Shown piece after piece: positions 9,299 to 13,070 of a stretch of 35,868 nt of DNA. The position numbers and the translations under genes are program-made. The notes under the pieces are model-generated. The model ran no database searches. It was given only the letters and a program-made list of their open reading frames with translations, and was not told where the DNA came from. Source of the DNA: Gammaproteobacteria bacterium (GTDB lineage Bacteria; Pseudomonadota; Gammaproteobacteria; UBA6429; Thiohalophilaceae); contig JAHECZ010000027.1 in assembly GCA_024641475.1 (NCBI GenBank), positions 1-35,868 of the forward strand, written 5' to 3'. Numbering within the stretch: the stretch's first letter is position 1; each line of letters starts with the position of its first letter.

Positions 9299-12019
9299 AT
9301 GGCTAAACCCGAAACTAAACCGCAATTAATTCTTGTCGATGGTTCTTCGTATCTGTTTCGCGCCTATCACGCGATGCCTGACTTGACCAATTCAAAGAAA
9401 GAGCCTACCGGCGCCATTTATGGTGTGGCGAATATGTTGCGTAAGTTGATCAAGGAATATCCACAGACGCCGGTTGTGGTCATCTTTGATGCCAAAGGCA
9501 AGACGTTTCGCAATGATATGTTTCCGGCATACAAGGCACACCGCCCACCGATGCCTGAAGATTTACAACAACAAATCGAGCCAATTCACGCCATCATTCG
9601 TGCCATGGGCATGCCACTGCTCTGTATTTCAGGTGTGGAAGCCGATGATGTAATTGGCACGCTGGCTGTGCAGGCGACCGACGCACAAATGGATACGCTC
9701 ATATCTACTGGCGATAAAGATTTGGCCCAGTTAGTGTCGCCGCACGTCACGCTGGTGAATACCATGACGGACACCTATCTGGATCGACAAGGCGTGATCG
9801 ACAAGTTTGGTATTCCACCCGAACGTATCATCGATTTTCTCGCATTGACCGGTGATAGTGCCGACAATATTCCCGGTGTTAATGGTGTGGGTGACAAGAC
9901 CGCGCTTAAATGGTTGTCACAATATGGATCGTTAGATGCAATCGTTACGCATGCAGATGAAGTGAAAGGCAAGATTGGCGAAAAGTTGCGTGCGGCACTG
10001 CCAGAAATACCTTTATATAAACAATTAGTCACGATCAAATGCGATGTACCATTACAAGCAACACCCCAATCATTGCAAATGTCACCAGCGGATGTGTCGG
10101 CGTTGCAACAATGGTATGAGAGATATAATTTCAAAAGCTGGTTGGCGGAACTAAGTCACTCAACTGTCGATTCAAAAGAATTACCTGAATATCCTGCAGC
10201 AGCACCAGCAAAGGATGTGCAGTACGAAACGATATTGGAAATGGCTGCACTGGAACGCTGGCTGGTAAAACTCCGGGCCGCGCCCTTGTTTGCCTTTGAT
10301 ACTGAAACCACCGGCCTGAATTATATGCAGGCAGAACTGGTTGGTATTTCATTTGCGGTAAAAAGTGGTGAAGCTGCTTATTTACCATTGGCGCACGCCT
10401 ACGCAGGTGCGCCAGCTCAACTTGATCGCCTGGAAGTTTTGCAACGTTTTAAACCGTTATTGGAAAATCCACAAGCCGCGAAGCTGGGCCAACATCTCAA
10501 ATACGACATGAACGTACTGGCGCGGTATGGCATCGACATGCAAGGTGTGGCGCACGATACCATGTTGGAATCGTATGTGCTTGATAGTACCACGCGCCAT
10601 GACATGGATACGCTGGCACTGACTTATCTGAATCACACCACGATCAGTTATGAAGATGTCGCAGGCAAGGGCGCCAAGCAAATCTGTTTTGATCAGGTCG
10701 CCATCGATGTGGCAGCTGAATATGCTGCCGAGGATGCAGATATTACTTTGCGCTTGCATGAGGCCTTATGGCCACAATTGCAGAAAACCCCAAGCCTGCA
10801 ATCTGTTTATGCAAACATCGAGATACCTCTGATTCCGGTGTTGGCGCGAATGGAACGGCGCGGCGTGTTAATCGATCGGGAAAAATTACGGCAACAGAGT
10901 GTGCGCCTTGATCAGGAATTATTAGCGATCGAGCAGCGCGCTTATAGCGAAGCAGGACAAAAATTTAATCTGGGTTCGCCGAAACAAATCCAGGCCATCC
11001 TGTTTGATAAAATGCAAATTCCGGTGCTGGAGAAAACGCCGACCGGACAACCTTCCACGGCTGAGTCTGTTTTGCAGGAGCTGGCGTACAGTTACGCATT
11101 GCCCAAACTCATTCTTGAGTATCGTACATTAAGTAAACTCAAATCGACTTATACGGATAAATTGCCGGAGATGATCGATCCGGTAACCGGGCGAGTACAC
11201 ACTTCCTATCATCAAGCCGTGGCAGCAACGGGACGTTTATCTTCATCGGATCCCAATCTGCAAAACATTCCCATACGTAGCGAAGAAGGGCGGCTTATCC
11301 GGCAAGCCTTTATTGCGGCAGAAGGCTATCAAATTGTGGCGGCGGATTATTCGCAAATTGAACTGCGCATCATGGCGCATCTCTCGGGCGATCGCGGCTT
11401 GCTGGATGCATTTGCACAAGGTCAGGATATTCATCGCGCCACTGCGGCCGAAGTGTTTGGCGTATCACCGCAAGAGGTCAGCGTTGATCAACGTCGTTCC
11501 GCCAAGGCGATCAACTTTGGTTTGATTTACGGCATGTCTGCTTTCGGGTTGGCGCGGCAATTGGAAGTCGAACGCAGTGTGGCGCAATCCTATATCGATT
11601 TATATTTTTCACGCTATCCAGGCGTGAAGGCCTATATGGATCGCACTCGCGAGTTGGCGCGTGAACAAGGTTATGTCGAAACATTATTTGGGCGGCGTTT
11701 GTATCTTCATGAGATAAAAGCTGCCAATGCCCAACGGCGCCAATACGCCGAACGTACCGCAATCAATGCACCCATGCAGGGAACCGCCGCCGATATCATC
11801 AAACGCGCCATGATTACCCTCGATATTGCCATGCGTGAAAGTTATCCAAACGCGCACATGATCATGCAAGTGCATGACGAACTTGTATTTGAAGTGACTG
11901 CACAGGATCAGGATAAATTTATTTCACTCATTCGTGACACGATGAGTCAAGCGGTAACATTACACGTACCATTAATCGTGGATATCGGTGTTGGTGACAC
12001 GTGGGAAAGTGCACATTAA
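9299..12019 (+). CDS. polA: DNA polymerase I
   Basis: A 906-residue three-domain enzyme for Okazaki-fragment maturation and repair synthesis. The N-terminal 5' nuclease (about 1-290) has LILVDGSSYLFRAYHAM, SGVEADDVIG, STGDKDLAQLV and the helix-hairpin segment GDSADNIPGVNGVGDKTA. The 3'-5' exonuclease (about 315-515) keeps its acidic residues in FAFDTETTGLNY, GQHLKYDMNVLARYGI and YAAEDADITLRL, so proofreading should be active. The polymerase domain has motif A DYSQIELRIMAHL (near 682), motif B RRSAKAINFGLIYGMSAFG (near 732) and motif C MQVHDELVFEV (near 857). Length is close to the E. coli enzyme (928). It is transcribed toward the small-RNA region that separates it from engB. Confidence 0.98.
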   Translation: MAKPETKPQLILVDGSSYLFRAYHAMPDLTNSKKEPTGAIYGVANMLRKLIKEYPQTPVVVIFDAKGKTFRNDMFPAYKAHRPPMPEDLQQQIEPIHAIIRAMGMPLLCISGVEADDVIGTLAVQATDAQMDTLISTGDKDLAQLVSPHVTLVNTMTDTYLDRQGVIDKFGIPPERIIDFLALTGDSADNIPGVNGVGDKTALKWLSQYGSLDAIVTHADEVKGKIGEKLRAALPEIPLYKQLVTIKCDVPLQATPQSLQMSPADVSALQQWYERYNFKSWLAELSHSTVDSKELPEYPAAAPAKDVQYETILEMAALERWLVKLRAAPLFAFDTETTGLNYMQAELVGISFAVKSGEAAYLPLAHAYAGAPAQLDRLEVLQRFKPLLENPQAAKLGQHLKYDMNVLARYGIDMQGVAHDTMLESYVLDSTTRHDMDTLALTYLNHTTISYEDVAGKGAKQICFDQVAIDVAAEYAAEDADITLRLHEALWPQLQKTPSLQSVYANIEIPLIPVLARMERRGVLIDREKLRQQSVRLDQELLAIEQRAYSEAGQKFNLGSPKQIQAILFDKMQIPVLEKTPTGQPSTAESVLQELAYSYALPKLILEYRTLSKLKSTYTDKLPEMIDPVTGRVHTSYHQAVAATGRLSSSDPNLQNIPIRSEEGRLIRQAFIAAEGYQIVAADYSQIELRIMAHLSGDRGLLDAFAQGQDIHRATAAEVFGVSPQEVSVDQRRSAKAINFGLIYGMSAFGLARQLEVERSVAQSYIDLYFSRYPGVKAYMDRTRELAREQGYVETLFGRRLYLHEIKAANAQRRQYAERTAINAPMQGTAADIIKRAMITLDIAMRESYPNAHMIMQVHDELVFEVTAQDQDKFISLIRDTMSQAVTLHVPLIVDIGVGDTWESAH

Positions 12020-12060
12020 AAAATCAATACGCAGGGAAATAAATTTAAAAATTAAAAAAT

Positions 12061-12089
12061 TTGAATTTGTACCGAAATCGGTTATCTTA
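12061..12089 (+). promoter_or_regulatory. candidate sigma70 promoter for the polA-engB small RNA
   Basis: TTGAAT (12061-12066) and TATCTT (12084-12089) are separated by 17 bases, each matching four of six consensus positions. An A/T-only run at about 12040-12060 lies directly upstream, like an UP element. Transcription would start near 12096. A second possible -10, TATATT, is at 12092-12097. Confidence 0.4.
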
Positions 12090-12218
12090 CGTATATTGTT
12101 TGTTTGGAAAGATTGCGCTCATCAAGAAACCGATGAGGGAACTTTTAGTCAGCCCGCCCGACTAATGGTTTTAGTGGTAAGTTTCCCGCGCAATCCCCCT
12201 CCCTGGCGGGAAATTTAT

Positions 12219-12246
12219 ACACCCGAACCCCAAAGTCGGGTGTTTT
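12219..12246 (+). terminator. terminator-like hairpin 1 in the small-RNA region
   Basis: An eight-pair perfect stem ACACCCGA/TCGGGTGT with nine-base loop ACCCCAAAG. Only about four T follow, so termination may be partial and read-through to the next hairpin is possible. Confidence 0.5.
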
Positions 12247-12249
12247 ATG

Positions 12250-12285
12250 CCCCAGGTAGTCTTCCCCCATTACCTGGGGTTTTTT
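12250..12285 (+). terminator. rho-independent terminator 2 in the small-RNA region
   Basis: A perfect nine-pair stem CCCCAGGTA/TACCTGGGG with a 12-base loop holding CTTCCCCC, followed directly by six T. It begins four bases after hairpin 1. Confidence 0.85.
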
Positions 12286-12329
12286 CTGTCCGATATCTTT
12301 AATTCCAACTATTCGTCTCTACTATTGTA

Positions 12330-12442
12330 TTCAACGCGCCTTGCTCCTTCCCTGGCGAGGTTTGTCCTGTCTCCCCGACAGGATATGCGATTCGCCCCGG
12401 CCAATTTCGACCCCCCATATCCCTAAAGCCGGGGCGTTTTTT
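12330..12442 (+). ncRNA. second putative C-rich-loop small RNA (or distal part of the first)
   Basis: After terminator 2 the same design repeats. Stem CCTTGC/GCGAGG (12339-12360, one G-U pair) has loop TCCTTCCCTG. Stem TCCTGTC/GACAGGA (12365-12383) has loop TCCCC. The terminator stem CGCCCCGGC/GCCGGGGCG has a 26-base loop containing ACCCCCC. The loop TCCTTCCC is complementary to purine-rich ribosome binding sites. TACTAT at 12320-12325 could be a -10, but I see no good -35, so it could instead be read-through from the first unit. Ends are estimated. Confidence 0.5.
12393..12442 (+). terminator. rho-independent terminator 3, abutting engB
   Basis: A perfect nine-pair GC-rich stem CGCCCCGGC/GCCGGGGCG with an unusually long 26-base C-rich loop and six T. 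The T-run overlaps the engB stop codon. The T-run is only on the plus strand, so it serves transcripts coming from the polA side and not engB. Confidence 0.8.
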
Positions 12443-13070
12443 ATAGCGCTAGCCAGTTAGCGATAACTTCGCGGGCCTGTTCAATCGAGGCGGGTTGTGC
12501 AGTAGAAAATAGCTGCACGATCACATCTTTAACACCGGTTAATTCCTGGTTTACCTTGTTTAGCGTAGCGTGGGCTTCACGGCGGGTAAGTTTATCCGCC
12601 TTGGATAGCAAGATAAGCAGCGGGAGTGCTTTTGACTGGCACCAGTGCAGCATCTGCCAGTCAAATTCAGTCAAGGGATGGCGACTATCCATCAGTAAAA
12701 TCATGCCGCGGAGGGCCTGACGTTGATTGAGAAAGGTATCGAGAGTGTGATGCCACTGTGCTTTAAGATTGGCGCTGACTTTGGCGTAGCCATATCCGGG
12801 CAAATCAATCAAACGGCGTTGTTCGTCCACCTCAAAGAATACCAGGGCCTGGGTTCGCCCCGGGGTTTTACTGGTCCGGGCCAAGCCCTTGTGACCCACC
12901 AGGGCATTGATTGCGCTGGATTTTCCGGCATTGGAACGGCCTGCAAAGGCGACTTCCCTGCCGGAATCCAGCGGGACGTGATCCATATCAGGCGAGAGCA
13001 GCATAAAACGGGTATGCTGCAACGGATTTTTCGCCTGGCTGGTATTGGGAGGTTTTGCTTGACCACTCAT
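12441..13070 (-). CDS. engB: ribosome biogenesis GTPase EngB (YihA/YsxC)
   Basis: A 209-residue TRAFAC-class GTPase needed for assembly of the large ribosomal subunit. Visible motifs are G1 GRSNAGKS (44-51), G2 region TSKTPGRTQ, G3 DLPGYGYA (89-96) and G4 SKAD (156-159), where Ser replaces the usual Thr/Asn as in many EngB proteins. Length matches the family. It is convergent with polA across the small-RNA region and divergent from the cytochrome c5-like gene. The gene order polA-engB-cytochrome is typical of gammaproteobacteria. Confidence 0.96.
   Translation of the reverse strand: MSGQAKPPNTSQAKNPLQHTRFMLLSPDMDHVPLDSGREVAFAGRSNAGKSSAINALVGHKGLARTSKTPGRTQALVFFEVDEQRRLIDLPGYGYAKVSANLKAQWHHTLDTFLNQRQALRGMILLMDSRHPLTEFDWQMLHWCQSKALPLLILLSKADKLTRREAHATLNKVNQELTGVKDVIVQLFSTAQPASIEQAREVIANWLAL

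Follow-up and report, generated by a model that had tools for sequence, protein, structure and literature searches.

The stretch of DNA analysed here (the window, 35,868 nucleotides) carries polA, encoding DNA polymerase I, on the plus strand at 9299-12019 as a 906-amino-acid open reading frame whose product was assigned from an earlier note on this DNA together with the sequence. Downstream, engB (yihA) converges on it from the minus strand at 12441-13070 as an open reading frame of 209 amino acids. Among the 40 genomes of the same family, 37 have a polA orthologue, and an engB orthologue is present in 234 of 274 genomes of the class. The gap between the two genes measures 421 bases, and folding places three stable hairpins within 12182-12280 and another three within 12338-12436, each set leading to a G+C-rich stem and six T residues. 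The folds were compared with shuffled sequences, giving z values of -5.45 for 12090-12290 and -3.84 for the second stretch, with none of 200 shuffles reaching either. No Rfam family matched anywhere in the window at its gathering score.

The first of the two units (unit 1) lies on the plus strand at about 12171-12287, with its start placed by the promoter described below and its end by the T run. Two covariance models built in this study, R1 and R2, matched it at 107.5 bits and at 87.5 bits (E = 7.6e-22), respectively, and both spanned 12177-12287. Hairpin 1 (12182-12213) presents the loop GCAATCCCCCTCCCTG and hairpin 2 (12219-12243) the loop ACCCCAAAG, both drawn from the fold and from covariation. 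Hairpin 3 and the terminator occupy 12249-12286, comprising a stem at 12249-12280 with the loop CTTCCCCC and then TTTTTT at 12280-12285, for which the fold, a terminator scan and covariation agree. The loop GCAATCCCCCTCCCTG includes CCTCC, a motif that forms the anti-Shine-Dalgarno core at the end of 16S rRNA.

Unit 2, a paralogue of unit 1 on the same strand at about 12332-12443, was absent from the R2 training set and was matched by R2 at 46.2 bits (E = 7.3e-11); the R1 score was 27.9 bits. Its hairpins, delineated by the fold and R2, comprise hairpin 1 at about 12338-12361 with a C-rich loop around CTCCTTCCCTGG, hairpin 2 at 12363-12385 with the loop TCCCC, and hairpin 3 with its terminator at 12393-12442, where a stem (12393-12436) enclosing a 26-base loop with CCCCCC is followed by TTTTTT (12437-12442). 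A third R2 match in the same genome (G000) was weaker than E ~1e-6. Comparison with relatives shows each unit to be a predicted RNA of about 110-120 bases, with three hairpins and an intrinsic terminator. The polA-engB gap very probably contains a tandem pair of similar small RNA genes, one of which has an envelope-stress (sigma-E) promoter.

The earlier note, made from the letters of the window, had already placed small RNAs in this slot and proposed a second tandem unit, and the covariance models, which match both units, together with compensatory changes among relatives, bear this out. It described at least seven consecutive stems, and of the seven listed, six lie where it had put them and with the loops that it gave; they form two units rather than one run, and the first stem is part of the promoter. 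It also judged three of the stems terminator-like, two with six T residues. The two six-T ends stand, whereas the stem ending at about 12246, the middle stem of unit 1, has only four T residues and is not a terminator; relatives use the equivalent stem as the middle of three hairpins. Accordingly, of the transcript ends anticipated at 12246, 12285 and 12442, only two are supported, at about 12286 and 12443, and the single RNA of 150-190 bases gives way to conserved units of about 110-120 bases each.

For the family sample, 40 genomes from the order to which the window belongs were used, and all of them fall in one family. Sequence following polA was retrieved at 37 loci, and EngB lay inside the fetched stretch in 14 besides the window. 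A common layout was evident at 19 loci, the window included: a promoter-like block, hairpins whose loops include CCCTCCCT, TCCCCAAG and TTCCCCC, and a T run. R1, a model from an eight-sequence family seed, detected the RNA in 31 of the 40 family genomes (17 of 18 genera) and in 50 of the 274 gammaproteobacterial genomes, where most loci adjoin EngB or PolA. The broader model R2, derived from 52 sequences, was searched genome-wide across the class at a cut-off of E <= 0.01 and located the RNA in 158 of the 274 genomes, which represent 131 of the 221 genera, its E-values being rough owing to a shortened calibration. EngB or PolA was located within about 550 bases at 31 of 40 sampled R2 loci from outside the training set. 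Because the searches are blind to position and the RNA nonetheless lies mostly beside EngB or PolA, we counted this as support for its identity. By comparison, Rfam cut-offs recognise only 2 of 40 scanned class loci.

In several family genomes (G010, G009, G007, G012, G013 and G002), polA and engB are separated or further apart, and the RNA is kept within a few kilobases of polA. Together with a locus at which the RNA sits beside EngB (L145), these genomes suggest that the RNA moves with engB rather than with polA. R2 also matched six alphaproteobacterial genomes; these matches were weak, their best E-values ranging from 1.6e-4 to 0.33, and were set aside.

Covariation supports the three-hairpin structure. 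In the 52-sequence alignment, all 27 base pairs show changes on both sides, comprising all 6 pairs of helix 1 (96.4% of cells paired), all 9 of helix 2 and all 12 of helix 3. The proportion of paired cells was 94.3%, compared with 64% for shuffled partners and 34-54% for partners slid by one to three columns, and the covariation score was 0.723, with 0.185 and no more than 0.101 in these controls. Fitting the alignment to the model favours the structure of the latter, but both controls fall far below. The loops behave in the opposite way, holding their sequence while the stems change compensatorily: of the 52 sequences, 51 have CTCCC in loop 1, 49 have CCCC in loop 2 and 45 have CCC in loop 3. 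The alignment of relatives that the earlier note had called for thus yielded both covarying stems and C-rich loops. Its argument that so many C-rich loops would hardly arise by chance holds through this conservation. Within the window alone, the C-richness exceeds chance only moderately. No fewer C-rich loops than in unit 1 itself were seen in 2 of its 300 shuffles; the corresponding figures, again out of 300, were 49 for unit 2 and 18 for the whole stretch, so that it is conservation that carries the argument.

These patterns also bear on simpler accounts of the gap. The hairpins might be mere terminators or leftover repeats that shield polA and engB from read-through, and the gap indeed has two intrinsic terminators. 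We regard this as very improbable: hairpins 1 and 2 covary no less strongly than hairpin 3 even though a long T run follows neither, the loop sequence is conserved, the unit has a sigma-E promoter in front of it throughout the class, and the RNA persists in some genomes where it was not found beside polA or engB. It is scarcely credible, in our view, that the unit is a small-protein gene or a dual-function RNA, in the way that Spot 42 is annotated (spfP). A 104-codon open frame does span 11988-12302, and the E. coli spf annotation includes a 15-codon protein gene, but no open frame is common to the 19 relatives, whose longest frames vary in length, place and sequence, and the changes in the stems are compensatory.

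Upstream of unit 1, we identified a putative promoter of the sigma-E (RpoE/AlgU) type on the plus strand. Its -35 element, GGAACTT (12138-12144), falls in a gapless alignment of 19 of 19 family loci, and its -10 element, GACTAA (12160-12165), corresponds to GTCATA, GTCTTA or GTCTGA in relatives; all 19 loci have GAAC(T/C)T, 16 bases and then a TCnnA-like -10. A weight matrix constructed from 17 of the 19 loci, leaving out the window's own genus, scored GGAACTTT at 12138 with GACTAA at 12160-12165 at 13.2 bits. Among 40 independent loci of other families, 34 reached at least 10 bits, compared with 1.2% of dinucleotide shuffles, and their matches had a spacer of nearly always 16 bases and lay about 42-56 bases 5' of the model start. 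The genome itself encodes an RpoE orthologue (303.9 bits, above the curated cut-off), and the region upstream of this rpoE gene has the same promoter layout (CGAACTCT ... GTCTTA, 13.4 bits). Autoregulation of rpoE is established in E. coli and Pseudomonas, and the rpoE promoter found here fits that expectation. Judged by sequence, the conserved sigma-E-type promoter and the layout in common with rpoE make unit 1 most likely an envelope-stress RNA. Neither this promoter nor the wide occurrence of the RNA among Gammaproteobacteria had been recognised in the earlier note.

The spacer and -10 element of this promoter coincide with an inverted repeat, TTAGTC/GACTAA with the loop AGCCCGCCC, at 12145-12165 on the plus strand. 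Because of this overlap, the stem probably lies outside the main RNA. A further inverted repeat at 12118-12137 lies above the promoter. Both genomes of the genus have inverted repeats at and upstream of the promoter; repeats of other sequence occupy both places in G001, G017 has one, in the spacer, and most other family members have none. Such repeats could have arisen by chance, or could serve as an operator or as leader sequence in a longer transcript. A single longer transcript, starting from a promoter at about 12060-12090 and using all stems, including the leader hairpins 12118-12137 and 12145-12165, as functional RNA, would account for the good fold of 12090-12290 and for the presence of both leader stems, in different sequence, in the second of the two genomes of the genus. 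We nevertheless consider it unlikely, given that most other family members are without both leader stems and align there only in the promoter elements, that a promoter scan of the stretch returned no qualifying sigma-70 site, and that the sigma-E element overlaps the second leader stem.

Two units with the first under sigma-E control, the reading that we prefer, raise the question of how unit 2 is expressed. TACTAT at 12320-12325 on the plus strand is its probable sigma-70-type -10 element. Second units are also present in G004, G005, G006, G020, G048 and G051 (in G006, for example, at 54.3 bits with R1), and TAnnnT stands at the matching -10 place in all of these. The sigma-E matrix score did not exceed 1.8 bits ahead of unit 2 of the window or ahead of the second units of these genomes. 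In total, the sigma-E promoter is missing from second units at seven loci of the family and at one locus of another family (L171), where copy 1 has a sigma-E block and copy 2 has TTGACT-16-TATAAT.

Many relatives carry two to four copies, and the tandem organisation is thus not the unusual feature that it had seemed in the window alone. The maximum that we saw was four tandem copies between polA and engB (L147, 1080-1822), each behind a GGAAC-type block and GTCTGA, one of these scoring only 7.0. In G016 (L120, 100-1000), polA is followed by a tandem array of three nearly identical repeats, each about 320 bases long, all with a sigma-E block and with degraded, less C-rich loops; this array may be decaying or re-targeted. 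All four copies in L147 and all three in L120 have a block of the GGAAC or TGAAC type, after which comes GTCTGA or GTCTTA. These arrays, with sigma-E blocks on every copy, indicate that tandem copies are recurrent and that the promoter split is a pattern of the window's own family and no rule for the class.

RNAs on the polA side have so far been known lineage by lineage, as Spot 42, ErsA and sX13. The likeness to such RNAs that the earlier note had drawn applies to sX13 and ErsA and does not extend to Spot 42, and in the Rfam comparison that it had recommended, the Spot 42 and ErsA models both scored under their cut-offs. ErsA of Pseudomonas targets algC, oprD, amrZ and anr. Its model (RF01719, Pseudomon-1) reached 24.8 bits on the window, with a gathering score of 50. 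ErsA and the window RNA have in common the polA-engB slot and a sigma-E/sigma-22 promoter, which for the window is a prediction and in the ErsA locus of G200 reads TGAACTT ... GTCATA. The ErsA of G200 likewise has C-rich loops on its second and third hairpins, but is without the CCUCCC loop of hairpin 1. This locus scored 121.3 bits with RF01719 and, at the same place, 31.3 bits with R2 (E = 6e-8 in 3.1 kb). RF01719 and R2 match the same places in many genomes, RF01719 only weakly, and the divergence is too great for a tree. By model, place and promoter, ErsA looks like a divergent relative. ErsA is 132 nt long (PMC5819304), and its expression is sigma-22 dependent (PMC8575079; PMC5819304).

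The nearest studied RNA is sX13 of Xanthomonas. The part of the published account used here (PMC3771888) describes an RNA of about 115 nt downstream of polA, with an unstructured 5' region and three stems whose loops have 4C, 4C and 5C. According to the same part, the mRNAs repressed by sX13 bear G-rich motifs close to the start, activity is lost when the sX13 loops are mutated, and Hfq is dispensable (PMC3771888). The units of the window, compared with sX13 by description only, too have three C-loop stems 3' of polA. In contrast to the class-wide RNA studied here, that part reports sX13 to be restricted to Xanthomonadaceae, and sigma-E control is not described in it; its authors raised the question of similar RNAs at other polA loci (PMC3771888). 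No family named sX13 was among the Rfam matches to the window up to E 10.

Among other families, the anti-hemB model (Burkholderia RNA 7, RF02837; gathering score 49.5) gave 28.5 bits on unit 1 and 27.8 bits on unit 2, and class relatives exceeded its cut-off in L148 (56.4 bits) and L146 (51.7 bits). Anti-hemB has the same three-hairpin plan and a CCUCCCU loop in hairpin 1, whereas its model is shorter and the loops of hairpins 2 and 3 are unlike those of the window units. The best sub-threshold Rfam match in the window was the alphaproteobacterial ar14 (RF02344; 38.5 bits, E = 1e-5, gathering score 58.8), which rests on CCUCC-type loops and the terminator. The betaproteobacterial toxic small RNA model gave 25.2 bits, under its cut-off. 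Spot 42 (RF00021; gathering score 80) shares the polA-yihA (engB) slot and a terminator hairpin, and scored 13.1 bits (E = 8.5) on unit 2. Kinship with it was not supported, as its R2 score of 16.1 bits ranked third in 200 kb of E. coli, under DsrA (23.8 bits) and a terminator beside hspQ (23.7 bits). The DsrA match (L254, 25222-25318) probably reflects a general resemblance of terminator regions.

From the loop sequences and the example of sX13, we propose how the RNAs may act. Unit 1 would be turned on by RpoE under envelope stress, and unit 2 would be transcribed from its sigma-70-type promoter. The loops CCCUCCC, ACCCCAAAG and UUCCCCCA, exposed on strong stems, could pair with G-rich Shine-Dalgarno or near-start sites of several mRNAs (AGGGAGG, UUGGGGU and GGGGGAA), and this pairing would block translation. 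The RNA would then serve as a sigma-E-linked translation brake on chosen mRNAs, with the second copy constitutive or differently regulated. The C-rich loops thus probably block ribosome-binding sites. A target scan of about 250 kb of the genome plus the window said little beyond a mild excess for loop 1: across 260 genes, 6-base complements of loop 1 occurred in 24 start regions compared with 6, 13 and 14 in control stretches, an excess that arises partly because these complements contain the Shine-Dalgarno core. Complements of loops 2 and 3 showed no clear enrichment at the starts of the same 260 genes. The genome encodes Hfq (101.9 bits); hfq itself was rejected as a target, as its start has no G-rich motif, unlike the sX13 target.

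The same two RNAs might instead act mainly by binding protein, as CsrB-type RNAs do with CsrA. Multiple hairpins with conserved loops recall sponge RNAs, and the target scan returned no confident mRNA targets. However, the conserved loops are C-rich (CUCCC, CCCC) and not the GGA bound by CsrA/RsmA in the portion of the literature drawn on here (PMC4894983), and sX13 needs C-rich loops and G-rich targets in the corresponding part of its report (PMC3771888). We therefore think protein binding quite unlikely as the main mode of action. The explanation as a whole, two paralogous trans-acting RNAs of which unit 1 is RpoE-driven and whose loops block translation, appears to us likely.

A broader evolutionary reading has, in our judgement, about even chances. 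It supposes an ancestral gammaproteobacterial sigma-E RNA gene beside polA, with three anti-Shine-Dalgarno-like loops and present in more than half of genera, of which ErsA, anti-hemB and perhaps sX13 would be local descendants; tandem duplication in the window's family and at least one other would have split the copies between envelope-stress and housekeeping promoters. In the present analysis, a single structural model and a single promoter motif join loci in more than half of the sampled Gammaproteobacteria. If this is correct, many little-studied bacteria have a common RNA regulator as part of their envelope stress response, and tandem copies with different promoters provide a natural test of a target split between stress and normal growth. 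As a minor observation, two loci of one genus (L131 and L129, genus g14) have repeats downstream of the RNA, CTGCGCGGGCTGAGAAGCGGG ... CCCTCC ... CTCCCGCTTCTCAGCCCGCGCAG, which apparently represent another inverted repeat element with C-rich stretches.
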